A stretch of DNA of 8,245 bases from the NCBI GenBank assembly GCA_013812995.1, contig JACCSL010000179.1, positions 1 through 8,245 on the forward strand, read 5' to 3'. The position numbers and the translations under genes are program-made. Shown in pieces: positions 1 to 8,245 of the stretch (within the stretch, counting starts at the first letter, position 1; each line of letters opens with the position of its first letter). Below the pieces are notes generated by a model. That model had not been told where the DNA came from. It worked only from the letters and a program-made list of their open reading frames with translations, and searched no databases. The stretch is from Ardenticatenales bacterium (lineage in GTDB: Bacteria > Chloroflexota > Anaerolineae > Ardenticatenales > Ardenticatenaceae).

Positions 1-1
1 G

Positions 2-190
2 GTGTGGGAACAGGGATTGGAGGCAGCCAAAACCCTGGGAATGCCATACGAGCAGGGGCTTATCCATCTGGAGATGGCCCGAGCTCTGGAGAGTGCTGCC
101 CCCGAGCGCCTCGCCCATCTGACACGCGCCCGCGAGATACTCACCCCTCTGGGAGCCACCCATGACCTCACGCTGCTTCCTCCACCATGA
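2..190 (+). CDS. C-terminal end of a TPR-repeat protein (partial, 5' cut by window)
   Basis: Only the last 62 residues are in the window, and the frame is open to the left edge, so the true start lies upstream; the GTG at position 2 is probably an internal valine. The pattern W-x3-L-x2-A-x2-L-G-M-P-Y-E, then a helix pair ending L-T-R-A-R-E-I-L-x2-L-G-A, is the TPR-like helical hairpin that typically closes large bacterial signalling proteins. Those are usually class III nucleotide cyclase, AAA/NACHT-type ATPase and TPR fusions, or LuxR/SARP-type regulators. The catalytic part is not visible, so cyclase activity is inference only. The gene ends nine bases before the next start, so the two are probably co-transcribed or translationally coupled. 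Confidence 0.7.
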   Translation: MWEQGLEAAKTLGMPYEQGLIHLEMARALESAAPERLAHLTRAREILTPLGATHDLTLLPPP

Positions 191-199
191 GCTTTATCT

Positions 200-1126
200 A
201 TGTATAGTGAACCGTTAAGCCGCATTCTATCGGCGTCAATGCGACGGCTTGAAGGCGAGATCGCCCAGCGGACACCGCTCATGGCAGAGCCGGTGCAGCG
301 ATGGATGCACAGCCTGGCGGGCAGTACGCACCCCGAGAATTATTTCAAACACCCGGTCGCCTTTCCCATGCTGCTCCTGCCCTGGTGGCTGGAGGAGTCC
401 CTGAGCCCCACGCACGATGAGAGGCTTCAGGGAGATATCATCTACTCGACCCTGAATGGCTACTACTATATTCGGCTGATCGATAATGTGATGGACGGGG
501 ACAGCAGCACCGACCTATCCTTGCTACCCGCCGCTGGTTTCTTCCACACCGAATTTCAGAGCGCCTACTATCCCTATTTTGCTGCTGATCATCCCTTCTG
601 GCCCTATTTTCGCGAGGTGTGGGCCTGCTCCGCCGAGTCCGCTATGTGGGATGCAAGAGAGGCGGTGATCGATGAGAGCCATTTTGTCCGGGTGGCGGCG
701 CGGAAGGTGTGTGCAGGCAAAATACCGCTCGCCGCCGTCTGCTATCACTATGGACGCCCCGATCTGATCGAGCCCTGCGCGGCCTTCGTGGATCGGCTGG
801 GCTGCTGGCACCAGATGTGGAATGACCTCTTCGATTGGAACAAGGATCTGACGCACCAGAACCAGAGCTTTTTCCTGGCCGAGGCGGAGCGGCGACGCAG
901 GGCGGAGGAATCTGTCGCAGCCTGGGTGGTTCGGGAAGGGTTCGAGTGGGGCTGCACGACGCTCCAGCGATGGATGAGCGAGCTACAGCAGATGGCGCTG
1001 ACCCAAAAGAGCGCCCCCCTGGAGCACTATCTGCAACAGCGCGCGGCGATGATTGCTGACCAACAAACAAGGGTGAAAGAAGGCTTTCAGCGGCTGGCAA
1101 AGCTTGCGACCCTCCTAGAAGGATAA
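200..1126 (+). CDS. Class I isoprenoid synthase-like protein (terpene/prenyl synthase fold)
   Basis: This 308-aa, largely alpha-helical protein has the two metal-binding regions of class I isoprenoid synthases. The first is I-D95-N-V-M-D99-G-D, where an Asn replaces the second Asp of the usual DDxxD. The second is N208-D-L-F-D212-W-N-K-D216, resembling the NSE/DTE or second Asp-rich motif that binds the Mg/diphosphate of a prenyl diphosphate. Both lie at the expected ~110-residue spacing. Known family members ionise a prenyl diphosphate, either to condense it or to cyclise it; the substrate cannot be read here. There is no signal peptide or membrane segment, so it is probably cytosolic. The start at 200 has only a weak upstream ATGAG, and an in-frame ATG at 239 is the alternative. 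Coupling to the preceding gene could compensate for the weak site. The next gene starts four bases after its stop. Confidence 0.72.
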   Translation: MYSEPLSRILSASMRRLEGEIAQRTPLMAEPVQRWMHSLAGSTHPENYFKHPVAFPMLLLPWWLEESLSPTHDERLQGDIIYSTLNGYYYIRLIDNVMDGDSSTDLSLLPAAGFFHTEFQSAYYPYFAADHPFWPYFREVWACSAESAMWDAREAVIDESHFVRVAARKVCAGKIPLAAVCYHYGRPDLIEPCAAFVDRLGCWHQMWNDLFDWNKDLTHQNQSFFLAEAERRRRAEESVAAWVVREGFEWGCTTLQRWMSELQQMALTQKSAPLEHYLQQRAAMIADQQTRVKEGFQRLAKLATLLEG

Positions 1127-1130
1127 CTTC

Positions 1131-2798
1131 ATGACTGACCCCAACAGCCTGATTGATCTTTTTGCGCTAGGCCAGAGCTGCCTCACCTCCTTTATACAGG
1201 AATTTGAATCGTATGGAATCACCGCCGACCCTCGCTTGACGCTCCTGCGCGGCAAAGGGGTTCTCTGCTACTACGACTTCAAGGATGGAAATATCTATCT
1301 GTCCACCCCCGACCTCTCGGACCCCAAGAGCAAGCTCCAGATGCTCTTCATGCGCTCGATTCTGCGCTGCGATAGCAACGAGGAGTTATTCGAGTTTCTG
1401 GGTCTCTTCATACCACAGGTGATCGCGCACGAGCTTGCACACCACTTTCGCCATCGCTATGGGCTCTTTGGGGACAACCTGTGGCACGAGGAGCAGGTCG
1501 CGAACCAGTTGGCGATGGCCGTGACCAAGCATCGTCTCTCGCCCCCCGAGAAAGAGAAAGCCCGCGACTACCTCCATCGTGCTCTGGAGGGGCTCTCCGA
1601 GAAGATGGAGGCCAAGAATATCGCGGCTGACTCCTATCGCAGCATCGTGGATGCGCTGAACACGGCCGGGCAGATTGGCACCACCACCGTCGAGAATCTG
1701 GAGCGGATGCAAAAAATATTCGCGCTCGACCCGGAGGATATGCTGCGAGACAGCGGGCAGCTCTCGGACGAGCTGCTCCAGCGGCTGGAGCGTCGCGACG
1801 ACATCATCGACGAGATCAACGAGGATTATGCCTCGGACTACATTCGTTATATGTACTATCATGTGGGCTGGGTCTACCTGGATGTCACCGGCCGCTCGAC
1901 ACACTATGTCGAGGAGTTCGCCCGAATCTATCTGGATCGGCGCGTGGATCTGCTGCCCCCCGTCGAGCCGAGTGAGAACCCCAGCGAGAATGAGATTTAC
2001 GCCTGTTACCGGGCGTATCAGGACACCGCGCCGATCTCTGAGGCCGCAGGCTATTACTTTTATAAACGCTACCGCTCTCTGCTGCTCGCCAAGTTGCAGT
2101 CGATTGAGCTCAGCACTCCCACCCAGACACAGCAGCTTCAGCGCGAGGCGGCGTTCCTGCTGGAAAATTGGAATGGTCAGGAGGGCGACTCTCTATCGTA
2201 CCTATCCCAACTGGCCCCGCCGCCAGCCCGTGTTCTCTTTCCAAATGCCATCGCGGAGCATCTCGACCCCAAGCTGCCCATGCAACTCTATCTTCCCACA
2301 GAGACGGACAAGCGACTCTGGAAACATGTCTTCCTGAAAGAAAAGGACGAGAGCGCCGCCAATACCCTCCATCGGCTCAGCCTGCTGGACCAGACGGATA
2401 TCTACAAGCCGCTGCCCGCCGAGGTTCTGTTGGGGTTGGTACAGAATTTCTGTCGAATCTACCTGAATCCCGACGAAATCATCATCTGGGAGGGGGAGAT
2501 CAACGACGATGTGTATATCCTGATTCAGGGGGAGTTGGCCGTGTCCGTCACCCAGGATGGGCAGCCGAAGCGGGTGGGTACGATTCGCCCCGGTGAGGTG
2601 TTTGGGGAGATGGCCTTTTTTACCCGCGAGCCTCGCACGGCCACGGTTCGTGCCACCGAGCCCTCCGAGTGCTTCGTGCTGAAGGATTCCGACCTGCACC
2701 TCTTCGCCTTCAAGCATCCCTCCACGCTGATGCAGATGGCCGGAGCCCTGGCGCGTCGCATCGCCAGCCTCAACCGGGCCAGTGTGGCACAGGCATAG
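1131..2798 (+). CDS. Zinc metallopeptidase-like protein with C-terminal cyclic-nucleotide-binding domain
   Basis: This 555-aa protein appears to have three parts. Residues ~1-150 carry H100-E-L-A-H104 followed by E121-Q-V-A-N125, the HExxH plus ExxxD/N layout of gluzincin peptidases (M48 or ImmA/IrrE-like), in which the two His and the later Glu bind zinc. Residues ~150-430 are helical and acidic, with no domain I recognise. Residues ~435-545 form a cNMP-binding beta-roll: I-L-I-Q-G-E-L-A-V, then F-G-E493-M-A-F and P-R502-T-A-T-V. Glu and Arg are present where the phosphate-binding cassette needs them to hold the ribose and cyclic phosphate. No helix-turn-helix follows, so it is not a CRP-type transcription factor. 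AGAAGGA at 1117-1123 supports the ATG at 1131. It could be a cAMP/cGMP-gated protease, for example one acting on the neighbouring small protein; the target is inference. Confidence 0.78.
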   Translation: MTDPNSLIDLFALGQSCLTSFIQEFESYGITADPRLTLLRGKGVLCYYDFKDGNIYLSTPDLSDPKSKLQMLFMRSILRCDSNEELFEFLGLFIPQVIAHELAHHFRHRYGLFGDNLWHEEQVANQLAMAVTKHRLSPPEKEKARDYLHRALEGLSEKMEAKNIAADSYRSIVDALNTAGQIGTTTVENLERMQKIFALDPEDMLRDSGQLSDELLQRLERRDDIIDEINEDYASDYIRYMYYHVGWVYLDVTGRSTHYVEEFARIYLDRRVDLLPPVEPSENPSENEIYACYRAYQDTAPISEAAGYYFYKRYRSLLLAKLQSIELSTPTQTQQLQREAAFLLENWNGQEGDSLSYLSQLAPPPARVLFPNAIAEHLDPKLPMQLYLPTETDKRLWKHVFLKEKDESAANTLHRLSLLDQTDIYKPLPAEVLLGLVQNFCRIYLNPDEIIIWEGEINDDVYILIQGELAVSVTQDGQPKRVGTIRPGEVFGEMAFFTREPRTATVRATEPSECFVLKDSDLHLFAFKHPSTLMQMAGALARRIASLNRASVAQA

Positions 2799-2828
2799 TC
2801 TTCAACTATCAGCGGTACTTTTTCGTGG

Positions 2829-2857
2829 TTGCCAAGGATGTCCCGAGCCTGTATTCT
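2829..2857 (+). promoter_or_regulatory. Candidate sigma-70-type promoter for the small NHLP-like gene
   Basis: TTGCCA (2829-2834, 5/6 to TTGACA) is separated by exactly 17 bases from TATTCT (2852-2857, 4/6 to TATAAT). It lies in the short intergenic region, ~62 bases upstream of the start codon at 2920. The predicted transcript start, near 2863, falls just before a hairpin. The match is by eye only, and the organism's sigma preferences are unknown. Confidence 0.4.
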
Positions 2858-2866
2858 TTACCCAAT

Positions 2867-2880
2867 CCTCCGTTCGGAGG
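2867..2880 (+). other. 5'-UTR stem-loop upstream of the small gene
   Basis: CCTCCG and CGGAGG form a perfect inverted repeat around a TT centre, realistically a 5-bp stem with a GTTC tetraloop. The outer flanks TACCCAA and TTTGGTA can extend it with one C/T mismatch. No clean T-run follows, so it is a poor terminator for the upstream gene. It would sit at the very 5' end of a transcript from the 2829-2857 promoter, where such hairpins commonly stabilise mRNA. Confidence 0.4.
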
Positions 2881-2904
2881 GTGTTTGGTACCATTGATTC
2901 TCCC

Positions 2905-2910
2905 AAGGAG
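2905..2910 (+). promoter_or_regulatory. Ribosome binding site of the small NHLP-like gene
   Basis: AAGGAG lies nine bases before the ATG at 2920. It decides this start over the in-frame ATG at 2782, which overlaps the end of the upstream gene and has no comparable site. Confidence 0.75.
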
Positions 2911-2919
2911 CAAGATAGT

Positions 2920-3120
2920 ATGTCTGATTTCCAAACGATTGTTGGCCGTGCTGTATCGGACAAGGACTTTGCCCAGAAGTTGGTCGATAACCCCGAGGAG
3001 GCACTGCGCGAGGCAGGGGTAGAGCCGACAGCGGAGATGGTCGATGCGCTCAAGGGGCTGGATGTGGACTCAATCCAGAACCTCGCCTCCGCTTTTGGAG
3101 AAGACAAGGCCGCTATTTAA
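2920..3120 (+). CDS. Small NHLP/Nif11-leader-like protein, possible RiPP precursor
   Basis: This 66-aa acidic protein is predicted to be helical throughout. Residues 7-33 (starting IVGRAVSDKDFAQKLV, then NPEEALREAG) follow the pattern G-R-A-x-x-D-x-x-F-x2-x-L-x2-x-P-x2-A-L shared by nitrile-hydratase-like (NHLP) leader peptides and the related Franean1_4349/Os1348-type small proteins. The rest has a second helix around L44-K-G-L-D-V-D and ends A-F-G-E-D-K-A-A-I. There is no Gly-Gly cleavage site and no Cys, Ser/Thr-rich or repeated core, so a classical lanthipeptide, thiazole or sactipeptide product is not visible. It has its own candidate promoter and terminator, which suggests higher expression than the enzyme genes around it. 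Alternatives are a carrier or adaptor protein or a leader-only relic. The similarity is recognised from memory, not from a search. Confidence 0.68.
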   Translation: MSDFQTIVGRAVSDKDFAQKLVDNPEEALREAGVEPTAEMVDALKGLDVDSIQNLASAFGEDKAAI

Positions 3121-3140
3121 CCGCTGCCACCTTTGGCCCT

Positions 3141-3176
3141 AACGTCATCTGGGTAATTGCTCAGATGACGTTTTTT
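3141..3176 (+). terminator. Rho-independent terminator after the small gene
   Basis: AACGTCATCTG (3141-3151) and CAGATGACGTT (3162-3172) form a perfect 11-bp stem around a 10-base loop. G-C and wobble pairs can close the loop further, leaving AATT. A run of six T spans 3171-3176. It begins 20 bases after the small gene's stop and ends 13 bases before the next gene's ATG, with no T-run for the opposite strand. Confidence 0.9.
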
Positions 3177-3189
3177 GCGCTTTGACCTT

Positions 3190-5139
3190 ATGGACCATTT
3201 TTCCCCCTATCACCTCAAACGAGCGCGTGCCTGGCTGGAGATAGAGCACTTCCTGGGCGCGCTACCGCCCCATCTCCTGCAACAGGCGATCATCGTCCAG
3301 CATGAGCTGGCGACCCACTACTCCGATACCGGCCAGTTCCGCGACATTCTCTCCCGCCCGCAGGATGACCCGCTGCTCTACTGGCACTTCTGGCTGCTGG
3401 ACGATTTGAATGTTCCCGAGGACGAGCGACGCACGCAGTTGGAGGATGGAGTTTTTTCTGGAATGCTCTACGCCTTCATGGCAACCTACCTTCAGGAGCG
3501 CATCCTCGACGCGAGTTCTTTCATTGACAATCGCTTCCTGTTCCTGGCGAACCTCCTTTCCCAGAAATCCCTTGCCTGCTTCACCGATCTTTTTCCGGCG
3601 GAGAGCGTCTTCTGGCGCTACCACTGGGGGGCCTGGAAAGGCTATGCAGAACAAAGTTTGCAGCTAAGTCTCCCAAGGCACCTACAAGAAACAAGCGTTG
3701 CAGAGAAAGCTAAAGCGTCAGGGTACAGGCTGGCGATTGGCGCAATCCCTTTCATGGCGATTGCCTCAGCGTTGGAGAATGAGGACTTGCTTATCGAGTT
3801 CTTGTTCCTCATGGATAGCTTCAAGGCACTCTTCCAGACCATCGGCGAGATTGCCAGGATTCGCCGTGATCTCGCGCAGGGGCGCTATACCTATCCCATC
3901 CTGCGGACGATGGAGGCCGCAGGGATTTCCCCCGATGGGCCTGTTTCCCCTGAGCGCCTTCTGGGCGCGCTGATTCTGACCGGCGTGGGGGCAAAACTGT
4001 GCCAGGCGTGTCTGGAGGAGTTGGATCAATGCCGCGTCTTTGCCACATCGTTTCCGCTCCCCACAATAAAGCTCTATTTTGAGGCAGTGGCAGAGCGGAT
4101 CGAACAGCTAAAGGGCCTTCTCTCGCTGCGCGGGGGCGGTAAGGCAAGCTCGATGCCCGGTTTCTTTATTTCTGCGCCAGACTCGCTCAGTCAGGCCATC
4201 GACATGGCGGAGCGCTATTTGCTCTCCGACCTGACCTTCCGCGAGGGCTGGGAGGTGCAGCGCCAGGGCCTCTTCGACCAGCCCGAACTCATCGGGCAAG
4301 CCTTTCCCTCCGGGCTCGTCATCGAGATTCTCTGCCAGCACGGTCATGCGCTGGGCGAGCAGGTGGCTGGCATCTTCCAGCGCCTCCAGGCGAATCGCTT
4401 CCGCTATTACGATGTCCCAATTGGTCTACCGGACGCGGATGACCTCGGTTTGCTACTGCGCCTGCACCGCTACTCCGAGGACAAGAGCGCGCACAGCGCC
4501 ATGCTGGAGACGCCGCTGCGCTGGATGGAGCAGAGCATCGGCCCATCGGGGGAGATTCCTGTGTGGTTTGTCACGGACGAGCCGGGCGCGCACAATGTGC
4601 TCCTCTGGGGCGGAACCTGCGCGACCGTGGAGATGAACCTGCTGCTGGGGCTGCTAGAGTACGATTGGGAGCGATATCAGCCCCTCATCGAGCGGGCAAC
4701 GATTCCCCTGTTTGAACGGCTGCTCCGCACGGGCCTGGGAGCGACAGCGCACTATACGCCGTTGGCCTCCCTGTGGATTCTCAGCGAGTTTCTGAGTACA
4801 CTCGCCGCCAAACCTGCGTCTTCGCCTATTCTTGAAGCGATAACTCACCTGCGGGACCAGATTTCCCAGGGAACTCTACCTCGTGCGTACCAGGCCACGC
4901 CGCAGAGTGCGGCCTTCCAGCTTCTTTCAACCCTTCCGCTGAAGATTCGAGAATTTGTTGAGCCTAAATGGTTATCTGCCATTCTCAAGCAGCAACGCTA
5001 TGATGGAAGCTGGCCGGGCGAGCCTCTCTACGTCTGCCCCAACCGGGGCCGAGCGACTGTTTGGTACTCCAGCAACACCGTCACCACCGCTTTCTGCTAT
5101 CATGCCCTGAAGCGATACGCCGAGCGCCGTGCGAGTTAG
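3190..5139 (+). CDS. Two-domain terpene synthase-like protein: class I prenyl-synthase-like plus class II cyclase-like
   Basis: This is a 649-aa protein. The N-terminal ~320 residues resemble a trans-prenyl diphosphate synthase. L-L-D71-D72-L-N-V-P-E-D-E-R-R stands for the first Asp-rich motif, and GEIARIRRDLAQGRYTYP (219-236) aligns with the second (QxxDDxxDxxxD then G-x-x-T-x-P), but three of its four Asp are replaced by G, E and R. The C-terminal half, from ~330, resembles squalene-hopene/class II diterpene cyclases. It has D415-A-D-D418 followed by L-x4-R-L-x-R-Y, the DxDD acid that protonates a double bond, and Q602-R-Y-D-G-S-W608 as a QW motif. About 230 residues follow DxDD, close to hopene cyclases, but little room remains for a gamma domain. 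ATG 3190 is chosen because TTG 3175 lies in the terminator T-run. No Shine-Dalgarno precedes it. The product is probably a protonation-cyclised prenyl diphosphate (inference). Confidence 0.75.
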   Translation: MDHFSPYHLKRARAWLEIEHFLGALPPHLLQQAIIVQHELATHYSDTGQFRDILSRPQDDPLLYWHFWLLDDLNVPEDERRTQLEDGVFSGMLYAFMATYLQERILDASSFIDNRFLFLANLLSQKSLACFTDLFPAESVFWRYHWGAWKGYAEQSLQLSLPRHLQETSVAEKAKASGYRLAIGAIPFMAIASALENEDLLIEFLFLMDSFKALFQTIGEIARIRRDLAQGRYTYPILRTMEAAGISPDGPVSPERLLGALILTGVGAKLCQACLEELDQCRVFATSFPLPTIKLYFEAVAERIEQLKGLLSLRGGGKASSMPGFFISAPDSLSQAIDMAERYLLSDLTFREGWEVQRQGLFDQPELIGQAFPSGLVIEILCQHGHALGEQVAGIFQRLQANRFRYYDVPIGLPDADDLGLLLRLHRYSEDKSAHSAMLETPLRWMEQSIGPSGEIPVWFVTDEPGAHNVLLWGGTCATVEMNLLLGLLEYDWERYQPLIERATIPLFERLLRTGLGATAHYTPLASLWILSEFLSTLAAKPASSPILEAITHLRDQISQGTLPRAYQATPQSAAFQLLSTLPLKIREFVEPKWLSAILKQQRYDGSWPGEPLYVCPNRGRATVWYSSNTVTTAFCYHALKRYAERRAS

Positions 5140-5156
5140 AGGAAAGAGACGGACTC

Positions 5157-6059
5157 ATGGGAAAGATCTCGCGTTTTATCTACGGTACCCTATTTGCGCT
5201 GCTCACGGCGCTGGTGTACTGGTTCATGATGGTCTCGCAGGGTGTGTATTTTGGGCGGCGGATGGTGCTCTGGCTCTACGACCGTGGTGCGAGTGTCTAT
5301 GATCTGATCAAGCGCAACAATCCGGTCGAAGAGGCTGCGTTTCTGGGCATTCCTATCGCAGAGCGGCTGGCGAGAGATATTGGCCCGCGCCCCCTGCTGC
5401 TGGATGTGGCGGTCGGTACGGCGCGCCTGCCCCTGGCCCTCTTCGCGAGACCTTCCTACCAGGGCAATATCGTTGGGGTAGATATTAGCCGACAGATGCT
5501 GGCAGAAGCGGCTTCCAAAGTGGCACCATACAAAGAGCGCATCACATTGCTGCACTTTCCCTCTCTTCCCCTGCCATTCGCCGACGAGAGCTTCGATGCG
5601 GTCACCTGCATCGAGGCCATTGAATTCATGCCCGACTGGAAGGGTGCAATAGCGGAGATGGTGAGAGTCCTGCGGCCCGGAGGCTGGCTGGCCGTGACCA
5701 ACCGCATTGGGCCAACCGCCAAACTAATGCCGGGCCAGGTTGAGGCCGCGCCGCGCTTCGTTGCCTTTCTGCAATCCCTGGGCCTGCTCCATGTCGCGCC
5801 GCACGATTTGAAAAAGCGGTACTTTGGCCAGCTCTACTACGAGTTGATTCTGGGCCAAAAGAATGGAACGCGGGCGCTGAGCCAGCCCTCTGACGAAAGC
5901 TGGCTCAGTGCGCTGAAGTGTCCCCACTGTGATGAGGAGGGTAGGGGAGTGCTGGAGGCAGGGGGGCGACAATGGCGCTGCAAGGGCTGCGTCGGTACGA
6001 TCCGAATTGAGGACGATGGCGTGTGGGCCCTCCTGGAGGAAAGTTCGCTTTCCCTTTAA
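5157..6059 (+). CDS. Membrane-anchored class I SAM methyltransferase with C-terminal zinc ribbon
   Basis: This 300-aa protein starts with an N-terminal hydrophobic segment (residues ~6-27, inside a basic-flanked stretch) that should anchor it to the membrane. A Rossmann methyltransferase domain follows: motif I L-L-D83-V-A-V-G-T-A-R, the acidic strand-2 residue in V-G-V-D109-I-S, D-A-V-T-C-I-E-A at motif IV, and V-L-R-P-G-G at motif V/VI. This layout is shared with UbiE/MenG-type quinone and terpenoid C- or O-methyltransferases. The last ~50 residues hold C255-P-H-C258 and C275-K-G-C278 followed by I-R-I-E-D-D-G-V-W-A-L-L, which looks like a Trm112-type zinc ribbon. AGGAAAG at 5140-5146 supports the ATG at 5157, 17 bases after the cyclase stop. 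The acceptor is likely hydrophobic, perhaps the terpenoid made next door (inference). Confidence 0.82.
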   Translation: MGKISRFIYGTLFALLTALVYWFMMVSQGVYFGRRMVLWLYDRGASVYDLIKRNNPVEEAAFLGIPIAERLARDIGPRPLLLDVAVGTARLPLALFARPSYQGNIVGVDISRQMLAEAASKVAPYKERITLLHFPSLPLPFADESFDAVTCIEAIEFMPDWKGAIAEMVRVLRPGGWLAVTNRIGPTAKLMPGQVEAAPRFVAFLQSLGLLHVAPHDLKKRYFGQLYYELILGQKNGTRALSQPSDESWLSALKCPHCDEEGRGVLEAGGRQWRCKGCVGTIRIEDDGVWALLEESSLSL

Positions 6060-6076
6060 ACCGAGCGGAGCCAAAA

Positions 6077-6934
6077 ATGACAATATTCGATGAGATCTAC
6101 GAAAAGGTTCCCGCCGACCAGAAAAAGCAACTGCTTGGGTTTCGCGCAACGCACCCTTACCAAGCCGTGCCGCTCAATGGACTTCCCTGGCAGTACATTG
6201 TCGCTGGCAAGGGACCGCGAACGCTCCTCTTGCTGCCCGGTGCCTTCATGCGGGCCGATATGTGGCTCTACCTCTTCACTACCCTGGAGCCGACCTATCG
6301 TCTGCTCGCCCCCGATGCGCCGCCAGGCGTTGCCCGCATGGAGGAGATGGGGCGCGCGCTCGTGGAGATGCTGGACCGTGAGGGCGTCAAGGCGGCCACC
6401 GTCCTGGGCTATTCGACGGGGGGCGACATCGCGCAGTGCTTTCTCCAGGAGCATTCCGAGCGGGTGGACGGGCTCATCCTCTCCCACTGCACTGCCCTGA
6501 ATGCAACCAGCGCCGAGCGGCTGGACTCCTGGCGCTGGCTCGTGGAATTATTGCCCTTCCCCTTGGCGCAAGTCCTGTTACGCGGGCGTGCCCTGCTCTA
6601 TCCGCCCTCCTGCAAGTGGGCCAGTTTTACCCGCGCTTACTTCCGCGAGCGCATCGATGCCATCGACAAAAAAACCCTTCTGCGCAGCTACCAGACCACC
6701 GTCGAGAATGCGCGCGCCTTCACGTTCCGCCCGGAGGTGGTAGAAAATTGGCCCGGCACCATTCTTATCCTCTCTTCCAAGGATGACGAGAGTGTTTTTC
6801 GGGTCGAAGAGCTTCAGGCGCGATACCCGCGCGCCCGCAAGTATATTTTTGAGGGCGGGGGACAGCATATTGCACTGCTTTTCCCGGAGGTTTACACCTC
6901 CGTGTTGCGGATTTTTCTGGATGGGGTGTTTTAA
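6077..6934 (+). CDS. Alpha/beta-hydrolase fold protein
   Basis: This is a 285-aa soluble protein with a complete apparent catalytic triad. The nucleophile elbow is G111-Y-S113-T-G-G, the acid is D236 or D237 in S-S-K-D-D-E, and the base is H264 in G-G-G-Q-H-I-A. The early strand L-L-L-L-P-G-A-F-M-R-A-D-M-W supplies the oxyanion-hole HGxx-like region. Family members are esterases, lipases, thioesterases, epoxide hydrolases or acyltransferases, and nothing here fixes the substrate. The start at 6077 is preceded by GCGGAG at 6065-6070 and lies 17 bases after the methyltransferase stop, so the pair is clearly one operon. In context it may hydrolyse or transacylate an ester of the pathway product (inference). 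Confidence 0.85.
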   Translation: MTIFDEIYEKVPADQKKQLLGFRATHPYQAVPLNGLPWQYIVAGKGPRTLLLLPGAFMRADMWLYLFTTLEPTYRLLAPDAPPGVARMEEMGRALVEMLDREGVKAATVLGYSTGGDIAQCFLQEHSERVDGLILSHCTALNATSAERLDSWRWLVELLPFPLAQVLLRGRALLYPPSCKWASFTRAYFRERIDAIDKKTLLRSYQTTVENARAFTFRPEVVENWPGTILILSSKDDESVFRVEELQARYPRARKYIFEGGGQHIALLFPEVYTSVLRIFLDGVF

Positions 6935-7003
6935 CGGTGAAGTAGCAGCCAACTGTAGGGTGAGGTATAGTTCAAGCTATTATTTTCCCTTTTATTCCTT
7001 TTC

Positions 7004-7010
7004 AAGGAGG
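7004..7010 (+). promoter_or_regulatory. Strong ribosome binding site fixing a GTG start
   Basis: AAGGAGG sits six bases before GTG 7017. It is the best Shine-Dalgarno in the window. It shows that the ATP-grasp gene starts at GTG and not at upstream in-frame ATG codons, which overlap the hydrolase gene in another frame. Confidence 0.85.
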
Positions 7011-7016
7011 CCTGCC

Positions 7017-8213
7017 GTGACCGACTCCCCCAACACGGTGTTGTGCCTATCCCGTCGCCTCAAGGGCGAAGACTTTCTGCGCGAGGCCAAGCGATTGGGC
7101 TGGCGTGTCGTCCTCGTAACCATCCCCAAGCTGGAACATGTCGAGTGGCCTCGTGAGAGTGTGGACGAGATATTCTGTCTCCCCGACATGGATAAGATGG
7201 AGGATATGATTAACGGGGTCAGCTACCTGGCCCGTACCCGCTCTATTGATCGTATCATCCCTCTCGATGACTACGAGGTACCGATTGCTGCCGCTCTGCG
7301 CGAGCATCTGCGCCTCCCGGGCCTGGGCGAGACTGTGACGCGCTATTTCCGCGACAAGCTTGCCATGAGGGTGAAGGCGCGGGAAGAGGGGCTGGCGGTG
7401 CCGGACTTTTGCCCCACCATCAACGATGGAAAACTCCACGAGTTCATGCAGCGTGTGCCAGCTCCCTGGGTGCTCAAGCCCCGCGCCGAGGCGGCCTCAG
7501 CGGGCATCAAGAAGATTCACTCGGTGCAAGAGGTCTTGGATTACCTGGACTCCTTTGGAGATCGGCGTTCCTTCTATGTTCTGGAGCAGTACGTGCCCGG
7601 CCGCGTCTATCATGTGGACTCTATCGTTCACAAGGGCGAGGTGCTCTTTGCAGAGGTCCACCAGTATGGGAACCCGCCACTGGATGTCTCGCACGGCGGA
7701 ATCTTCACCACACACACCGTCGAGCGCGGCTCGGAGGTTGAGCGGGCGCTACGGCAGTTTAACGAACAGATCATCAAGGGGCTGGGGCTGCCGCGCGGTG
7801 TGACCCACATCGAGTTCATCAAGGGACATGAGGATGGGCGCTTCTACTTTCTGGAGGCTGCCGCACGCGTGGGCGGGGCCAACATCGTCGAGATGGTCGA
7901 GGCCGCTACCGGACTCAACCTCTGGCGGGAGTGGGCTAGGCTGGAACTGGATACAGAGCACTACAAACTCCCGAAACTCCGCAAGGGCTACGCCGGGATC
8001 ATCATCTCGCTGGCCCGCCAGGAGGATCCGGACACCTCGGACTACCAGGACAAAGAGATCGTCTGGCGAATGCAGAAGCGTTACCACGCCGGGCTCATCG
8101 TAGCCGCGCCGGGGCTTACTCAGGTACAGAGCCTCCTGGATGGGTATAGTCAGCGCTTTTATCACGATTTTCATGCCTCCATGCCCGCGCTGGACAAACC
8201 AGCGGAGGATTAG
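7017..8213 (+). CDS. ATP-grasp carboxylate-amine ligase
   Basis: This 398-aa protein has the three ATP-grasp regions. Residues ~1-105 are an alpha/beta pre-ATP-grasp domain ending I-I-P-L-D-D-Y-E. R112-D-K-L-A-M-R begins the central domain, whose ATP-binding strand reads W-V-L-K-P-R-A-E-A-A-S-A-G-I. Then come the hinge V-L-E190-Q-Y-V-P-G and the metal-binding H-I-E266-F and E280-A-A-A-R284-V-G-G. The last corresponds to ExNxR, with Ala in place of Asn. Such enzymes activate a carboxylate as an acyl phosphate and join it to an amine; the layout is closest to biotin-carboxylase-like amino-acid/dipeptide ligases (BacD type). It lacks obvious features of the RimK/MvdD graspetide branch. It lies 82 bases after the hydrolase, without a terminator between them. 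Substrates are unknown; an amino acid with the terpenoid acid is one option. Confidence 0.85.
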   Translation: MTDSPNTVLCLSRRLKGEDFLREAKRLGWRVVLVTIPKLEHVEWPRESVDEIFCLPDMDKMEDMINGVSYLARTRSIDRIIPLDDYEVPIAAALREHLRLPGLGETVTRYFRDKLAMRVKAREEGLAVPDFCPTINDGKLHEFMQRVPAPWVLKPRAEAASAGIKKIHSVQEVLDYLDSFGDRRSFYVLEQYVPGRVYHVDSIVHKGEVLFAEVHQYGNPPLDVSHGGIFTTHTVERGSEVERALRQFNEQIIKGLGLPRGVTHIEFIKGHEDGRFYFLEAAARVGGANIVEMVEAATGLNLWREWARLELDTEHYKLPKLRKGYAGIIISLARQEDPDTSDYQDKEIVWRMQKRYHAGLIVAAPGLTQVQSLLDGYSQRFYHDFHASMPALDKPAED

Positions 8214-8241
8214 CGGAGGAGCATCAAGTAGAGGAGGCGTT

Positions 8242-8245
8242 ATGG
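8242..8245 (+). CDS. Start of a further gene (3' cut by window)
   Basis: An ATG at 8242 is preceded by AGGAGG at 8232-8237, 28 bases after the ATP-grasp stop. It most likely begins the next gene of the same operon. Only the first codon is present, so nothing can be said about the product. Confidence 0.55.

Follow-up and report, generated by a model that had tools for sequence, protein, structure and literature searches.

Enzymes that build terpenes onto ribosomal peptides are known from several bacterial settings, and some of them combine prenylation and ring closure in one chain. ChrPC, which the review PMC13290415 describes from Hubrich et al. 2024, joins a trans-IDS-like prenyltransferase (P) domain to an MstE-like cyclase (C) domain, prenylates an internal Trp and then cyclises the chain. 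In NctPC the P domain is instead of the ABBA type: the Trp of a RiPP is prenylated and the chain is then cyclised (PMC13290415). According to the same review, all trans-IDS-like peptide prenyltransferases characterised to date act on Trp, and Trp recognition is assigned to a Gln preceding the SARM together with the first Asp of the SARM. PalQ acts on an NHLP peptide, whose C-terminal Trp it prenylates, and ComQ possesses a FARM but no SARM (PMC10853753); an ABBA enzyme prenylates a lanthipeptide in leader-dependent fashion (PMC12715784). The Pseudomonas Os1348 cluster places its small protein beside a GNAT acetyltransferase and a HEXXH-domain gene, and in the available portion of its description the words prenyl and terpene are absent (PMC7726476); an NHLP peptide alone therefore does not imply prenylation.

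The window, that is, the whole stretch of DNA analysed here, comprises 8,245 nucleotides of a contig from an Ardenticatenales bacterium (Chloroflexota, Anaerolineae; JACCSL010000179.1, positions 1 to 8,245). Its + strand encodes, in order, the end of a nucleotide-cyclase/TPR protein, a stand-alone ("solo") alpha protein, a protein with an HExxH motif and a cyclic nucleotide (cNMP)-binding domain, an NHLP peptide, and a fusion of a second alpha-type domain ("alpha-prime") to a class II terpene cyclase beta domain. Together these genes likely serve to assemble a terpene on, or jointly with, the NHLP peptide. The reading preferred here, at a probability of roughly 0.4, is that the fusion is the cyclase half of a split peptide-prenyltransferase/cyclase, with solo alpha as the transferase and the NHLP peptide as the substrate. 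Its support lies at the level of sequence: an invariant DxDD motif, decayed motifs in the fused prenyltransferase domain as against invariant ones in its paralog, and a recurring neighbourhood.

The fusion protein (649 aa; 3190..5139, +) is defined by an ORF call, an alignment of homologs and an AlphaFold2 model (pLDDT 90.8). In that model a trans-prenyl-synthase fold at residues 1-305 (alpha-prime, a degenerate trans-IDS fold; 3190..4104, +) is followed by one class II beta domain at residues ~330-647 (on the DNA, residues ~330-649, 4177..5136, +). A first-pass annotation of this gene had put a class I-like part first and a class II-like part last, and the model agrees: residues 1-305 adopt the trans-IDS fold and not that of a gamma/beta barrel. 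The domain order that the annotation had called unusual is also real on the model, although ChrPC provides a published precedent for it (PMC13290415). Its view of the N-terminal half as a prenyl diphosphate synthase holds for the fold, but both Asp-rich motifs are degenerate and the protein matches zero Pfam and NCBIfam families at E <= 1. The gamma domain, suspected of being missing or replaced, is indeed absent from the model, but nothing takes its place: residues 1-305 match trans-IDS, and residues 330-647 fill one complete beta domain, as in MstE or the HAD-TC-beta drimenol synthase. Nor is there a HAD phosphatase domain at the N-terminus, where no HAD family of Pfam matches and the model has the trans-IDS fold.

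A search of 5.8 billion proteins, in which the 7,996 candidates with the most shared words were scored, returned 102 rows at E <= 0.001, one of them being the protein of the window itself. The other homologs are 33-46% identical to it; organism labels are few among the rows, and all of them are of Chloroflexota/Anaerolineae MAGs. Query coverage is at least 92% in 91 of the 102 rows; the alpha-prime part therefore persists. The window fusion and 71 homologs make up the alignment (72 rows) to which the residue counts below refer. With its profile, 60 relatives and 400 phylum genomes were searched (up to 3 candidates scored per genome in the latter), and window-type fusions turned up in the window's own genome alone. 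Against PDB sequences the fusion protein has no phmmer match at E <= 10, and the profile has marginal matches at most, the best being the drimenol synthase AsDMS (E 0.012).

The class II part of the fusion looks complete, to judge from its motifs. As the first pass had claimed for the C-terminal half, there is a DxDD motif, D415-A-D417-D418 (4432..4443, +; D415 and D417 in 72/72 rows, D418 in 65/72), and a QW motif, Q602-R-Y-D-G-S-W608 (4993..5013, +; Q602, D605, G606 and W608 in 72/72); P414, E611, W625 and T632 are likewise invariant (72/72). The fusion has both the single alpha-barrel beta domain (on the model) and the DxDD that mark a monodomain class II terpene cyclase (TC-beta), while the gamma domain that a squalene-hopene cyclase has in or beside its beta domain is absent from the predicted model. 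By their structure titles, the close folds are those of drimenol and drimenyl-PP synthases, which act on FPP, and of MstE, which acts on a prenylated small aromatic. Beta domains from six distant relatives can be aligned to the window type (E 1.7e-21), the PPDADDL of the window fusion falling on the PPDADDL of relative L019. Among the distant relatives, L019 (E 7e-12) and L028 (E 2e-17) hit the C-terminal family of squalene-hopene cyclases. L028 has DADS in place of DADD.

The peptide proposed as substrate is encoded just upstream (66 aa; 2920..3120, +). It is a RiPP-precursor-like member of the NHLP (Os1348) family, scoring 75.4 bits against NF038399 (cut-off 40) and 55.2 bits against PF14407 (cut-off 48); the one PF14407 match at E <= 0.01 in its 5-Mb genome (83.6% complete) is this one, beside the fusion. 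It contains neither Trp nor Cys. Among window-type NHLP peptides, Trp is found in 0/13 of those beside fusions and in 0/120 of the 120 listed of 425 homologs, and Cys in 1/13 and 2/120, respectively; the Trp-bearing linked precursor of the ComQ, PalQ and ChrPC-P type is thus not what accompanies these enzymes. The tail is near-constant (AA at -3,-2 in 109/120, again among the 120 homologs listed out of 425), in contrast to a RiPP core that has diversified. The acceptor site, if it is on the peptide, therefore cannot be Trp, and the combination of no Trp with a near-constant tail leaves three options: a new acceptor residue, other cargo on the peptide, or a peptide that is not the substrate. 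It is mainly on this account that the probability of the split reading is held where it is.

The 72-base gap between the NHLP and fusion genes folds (RNAfold, -26.0 kcal/mol) into a hairpin with a T run (3141..3176, +), which a scan for consensus terminators does not call. The 10-base stem ACGTCATCTG/CAGATGACGT, followed by T's, is common to this gap and to that of locus L007 (8906-8988); the two fusion proteins are 41% identical, yet the gap stem is identical.

How regularly do these genes travel together? Twelve relatives from one scan of genome contigs, plus the window, provide a sample of 13 loci. Solo alpha is present in 10/13, the HExxH/cNMP protein in 9/13 and the nucleotide cyclase/AAA/TPR protein in 6/13. 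L009 has four tandem NHLP genes (6022-6929) upstream of its fusion, 2.1 kb off; L014 (9822-11265) runs solo alpha and the beginning of the HExxH protein together in a single open frame that reaches the end of the contig. The L014 contig is labelled Akkermansia muciniphila, a label that is perhaps wrong, or a sign of transfer. None of the block is seen in L006 (4.8 kb upstream and 96 bases downstream of the fusion) or in L013 (17 bases upstream, 8.4 kb downstream), and in L003, with 1.4 kb upstream, the HExxH protein and NHLP are the only members present. L011, with 9 kb on each side, has solo alpha only, without an NHLP or HExxH match; a 96-aa ORF with no Pfam match (8544-8834) lies between its solo alpha and its fusion, at the place of the NHLP gene, and is perhaps a diverged peptide. 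Contigs of equal size recur in the match lists, 17 for fusion and NHLP and 10 for fusion and solo alpha, the window included, which is a proxy for co-occurrence only.

Two further members of the block point to cyclic nucleotides. At the window's edge, a cut-off stretch of 62 aa (2..187, +) is the C-terminal end of a nucleotide-cyclase/AAA/TPR protein: it matches the C-termini of ~1,400-aa proteins in L005, L008, L012 and L007 (56-44% identity; E 2e-17 to 4e-12). It finds no C-terminal match in the corresponding L004 protein, the domains of which are Guanylate_cyc (E 3.6e-16), AAA_16 (9e-20) and TPR_12 (5e-10). The 555-aa protein between solo alpha and NHLP (1131..2798, +) has a zinc-peptidase-like HELAHH motif and a C-terminal cNMP-binding domain (PF00027, E 1e-21). 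No peptidase family of Pfam matches it; HE[LM][AT]HH is found in 7/7 loci checked, the window among them, and the protein is a candidate regulated protease. Downstream of the fusion, on the same strand (5157-8213), lie methyltransferase, alpha/beta hydrolase and ATP-grasp genes. These had been considered as tailoring genes of the block and were dropped because only one of the 12 relatives had a match, a methyltransferase in L009 (32%, E 7e-9); they are possible lineage-specific tailoring genes.

Distant matches to the fusion profile among the 400 phylum genomes are found in 5 genomes besides the window's own. One genome (G399) contributes the stretches L060 and L061, with fusions L028, L019 and L024, and another (G320) contributes L062, with fusion L020. 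The stretches with these four fusions also contain 13 precursor-like peptides, picked out by an E-L-x-x-R-type leader motif. All 13 contain Trp, which lies behind the leader motif in 12/13, and each has 2-5 Cys; several are arranged in tandem. Radical SAM/SPASM proteins are encoded in L060 and L061 as well; the models that fit them best are of the CefB and TIGR04463 type (E to 2e-38), with scores under the equivalog cut-offs. All three stretches, L060, L061 and L062, encode daptide-like HExxH proteases (E to 1e-30, below cut-off). In L063, from a third genome, a radical SAM protein (by Pfam only) lies close to the fusion; the precursor motif search found none in L063, L064 or L065. Judged by such neighbours, the distant relatives appear to tie the fusion architecture to RiPPs. 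The third fusion of G399 (L024; L061 13760-15930) is split over two overlapping ORFs, one of which encodes the N-terminal part; a frameshift is the probable cause. In L065 (8592-10784, = L023) a 730-aa protein has a squalene-hopene-cyclase-like C-terminal domain (PF13243, E 2e-16) and an N-terminus weakly like Trp dimethylallyltransferases (E 0.027; 7w8u, E 0.041); it is possibly an NctPC-type ABBA prenyltransferase-cyclase.

The absence of Trp and the near-constant tail lend themselves to a different account, in which the peptide is not prenylated at all: solo alpha would make or ionise a prenyl diphosphate, or prenylate a small molecule, the beta domain would cyclise the product, and NHLP would be a regulator, a carrier or a separate product. 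The substrates of the nearest beta folds and the match of the solo fold to prenyl-PP synthases fit this account, and fungal CPS (9q3i, 7s0a) likewise joins class II and prenyltransferase parts. Three observations nevertheless make it doubtful: in 10/13 loci NHLP lies no more than 2.1 kb upstream of the fusion and shares its strand; the distant fusions of L060-L062 stand in a RiPP-like setting; and neither alpha protein has the canonical DDxxD pair.

The split reading turns on how the two alpha copies differ. Solo alpha (308 aa; 200..1126, +) has the trans-IDS fold on its predicted model and is, from its motifs, the proposed active prenyltransferase. Aligned with its D95-N-V-M-D99, the FARM position of the fusion reads E103-R-I-L-D107 (3496..3510, +), not DDxxD; Q216 and a degenerate SARM, Q216-T-I-G-E-I-A-R-I-R-R-D227 (3835..3870, +), align with Q205, N208-D209 and D216, an NDxxD in solo alpha standing opposite QTIGEIAR. 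Across 60 rows of solo alpha, D95, D99, K169, Q205, N208, D209 and D216 are all invariant, and the FARM is DNxxD, not DDxxD, in 58/60. Mean identity across 9 loci is 31% for alpha-prime, 40% for beta and 44% for solo alpha. Read from these alignments, the class I motifs of the fusion are decayed and those of the adjacent paralog are kept.

The fused P domain and solo alpha both have the trans-IDS fold on predicted models, and neither has the DDxxD motifs of PF00348 at FARM and SARM. With hhalign the fused P domain finds solo alpha with 98% probability (E 9e-15) and 30 canonical PF00348 proteins from relatives weakly (38%, E 3e-4); solo alpha has no useful match to the canonical profile (0.3%) and, in a Pfam search, no match to PF00348 (one unrelated match lies below threshold), its predicted model matching the fold of prenyl-PP synthases. 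The alignment to the canonical profile had offered HFWLLDD (D71, D72) as the FARM of the fusion; this was set aside because the solo and full alpha alignments put the FARM at E103-D107. In the window's own genome (83.6% complete) a PF00348 search came up empty, and 20/20 relatives searched have such a protein.

Could the fusion nonetheless be a complete ChrPC-type enzyme that transfers the prenyl group with its N-terminal domain and cyclises it with its C-terminal one, solo alpha being a second prenyltransferase or a maker of donor? The P-C order is that of ChrPC (PMC13290415), and Q216 (63/72, the window included), D227 (71/72), D107 (63/72) and Asp or Glu at position 220 (61/72) are largely retained. 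Against this, the FARM is E-x-x-x-D (E103 in 44/72), the first SARM Asp, at position 219, is present in 4/72 (Gly in the window protein), position 185, a Lys in 58/72, is Ala in the window protein, and alpha-prime is less conserved than both beta and solo alpha in 36/36 pairs from the 9 loci, so that such an enzyme is unlikely here. That the fused class I half is a structural remnant, the protein an ordinary class II cyclase and its neighbours coincidental would accommodate the decayed motifs, but alpha-prime persists and one gene block recurs over diverged MAGs, which makes this very improbable.

Of the two marks of trans-IDS-like peptide Trp prenyltransferases, the Gln before the SARM is present (Q216; Q205 in 60/60) and the first SARM Asp is absent, both from most fusions and from solo alpha, where the residue three past the conserved Gln is Asn in 60/60. 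In the distant fusions L019, L020, L024 and L028, whose neighbouring peptides bear Trp, that residue is Asp; the P domains of L019, L020, L021 and L028 read Q-[MLF]-[FLY]-D-D-x-x-D-W-K-x-D. A rule suggests itself: Asp three past Gln in fusions linked to Trp, and Asn or mostly other residues in the window type, which goes without Trp. In genomes of the window's class there are also solo alphas with DDxxD (L016, 1456-2430, -; L017, 1405-2388, -), flanked by three and two NHLP peptides, respectively, with Trp in the C-terminal part of 5/5; these clusters are PalQ/PalX-like. Their solo alphas have the first SARM Asp and lack the Gln, and the rule is therefore at best about Asp.

The split reading can be given a mechanism. 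Solo alpha would ionise a prenyl diphosphate and move the chain to the NHLP peptide, or to something that the peptide carries. Alpha-prime would be an inactive partner that pairs with solo alpha and keeps the beta domain close, much as heteromeric prenyl synthases have small subunits that serve as inactive partners. The beta domain might then protonate the far end of the tethered chain via D417 and close the rings, by analogy with MstE, whose substrate is a prenylated benzoate. Trimming of the product would fall to the HExxH protein, perhaps under the control of a cyclic nucleotide that the upstream cyclase makes. A fuller version of this scheme, which we regard as quite unlikely as a whole, would have the active solo prenyltransferase and the cyclase on its dead copy pair as a two-protein machine on the Trp-free NHLP peptide, place the isoprenoid on the near-constant FGExxAA tail by an acceptor chemistry that would be new, close the rings of the tethered chain and free it by the cyclic-nucleotide-gated metalloprotease, the peptide being a dedicated terpene carrier rather than a diversified RiPP core. 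If the split reading is true, the ribosomal peptide-terpenoid enzymes would extend to a family for which neither Pfam nor NCBIfam has a name, and two departures are predicted: the two prenyltransferase copies, one intact and one decayed, would divide the work, and the prenyl group would go onto a peptide that has no Trp.

How, then, does the locus stand beside known systems? MstE (6sbd) has the same single class II beta domain and stands alone. The HAD-TC-beta drimenol synthase AsDMS (9m7d/9mhs) joins such a domain to an unrelated N-terminal domain, which is however HAD and not of the trans-IDS fold. Penicillium verruculosum CPS (PvCPS), to judge by titles, combines a prenyltransferase alpha domain with a class II domain in one protein; there the domain order is the reverse, a gamma domain is present, and free diphosphates are the substrates. 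NctPC is a prenylate-then-cyclise fusion working on RiPPs, with a P domain of another fold (PMC13290415). PalQ/PalX and ComQ/ComX share the trans-IDS fold of a peptide prenyltransferase, the NHLP leader (in PalX) and the Gln before the SARM (PMC10853753, PMC13290415), but the acceptor is Trp and the portion of PMC10853753 drawn on describes no cyclase domain. The closest likeness is to ChrPC: a prenyltransferase-fold domain and a monodomain class II cyclase in one chain (here on the model), linked to a ribosomal peptide. ChrPC, known here by description, modifies an internal Trp, whereas the window-linked peptides have none and the window P domain is short of class I motif residues that a separate paralog keeps; the comparison being by description only, no membership of the ChrPC family is claimed for the window fusion. 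Titles and abstracts of the open-access literature searched, most subscription journals lying outside it, contain no description of this gene block. We regard the split P function, the Trp-free near-constant peptide and the cyclic-nucleotide parts as a new combination, and the whole as a variant on a ChrPC-like theme.
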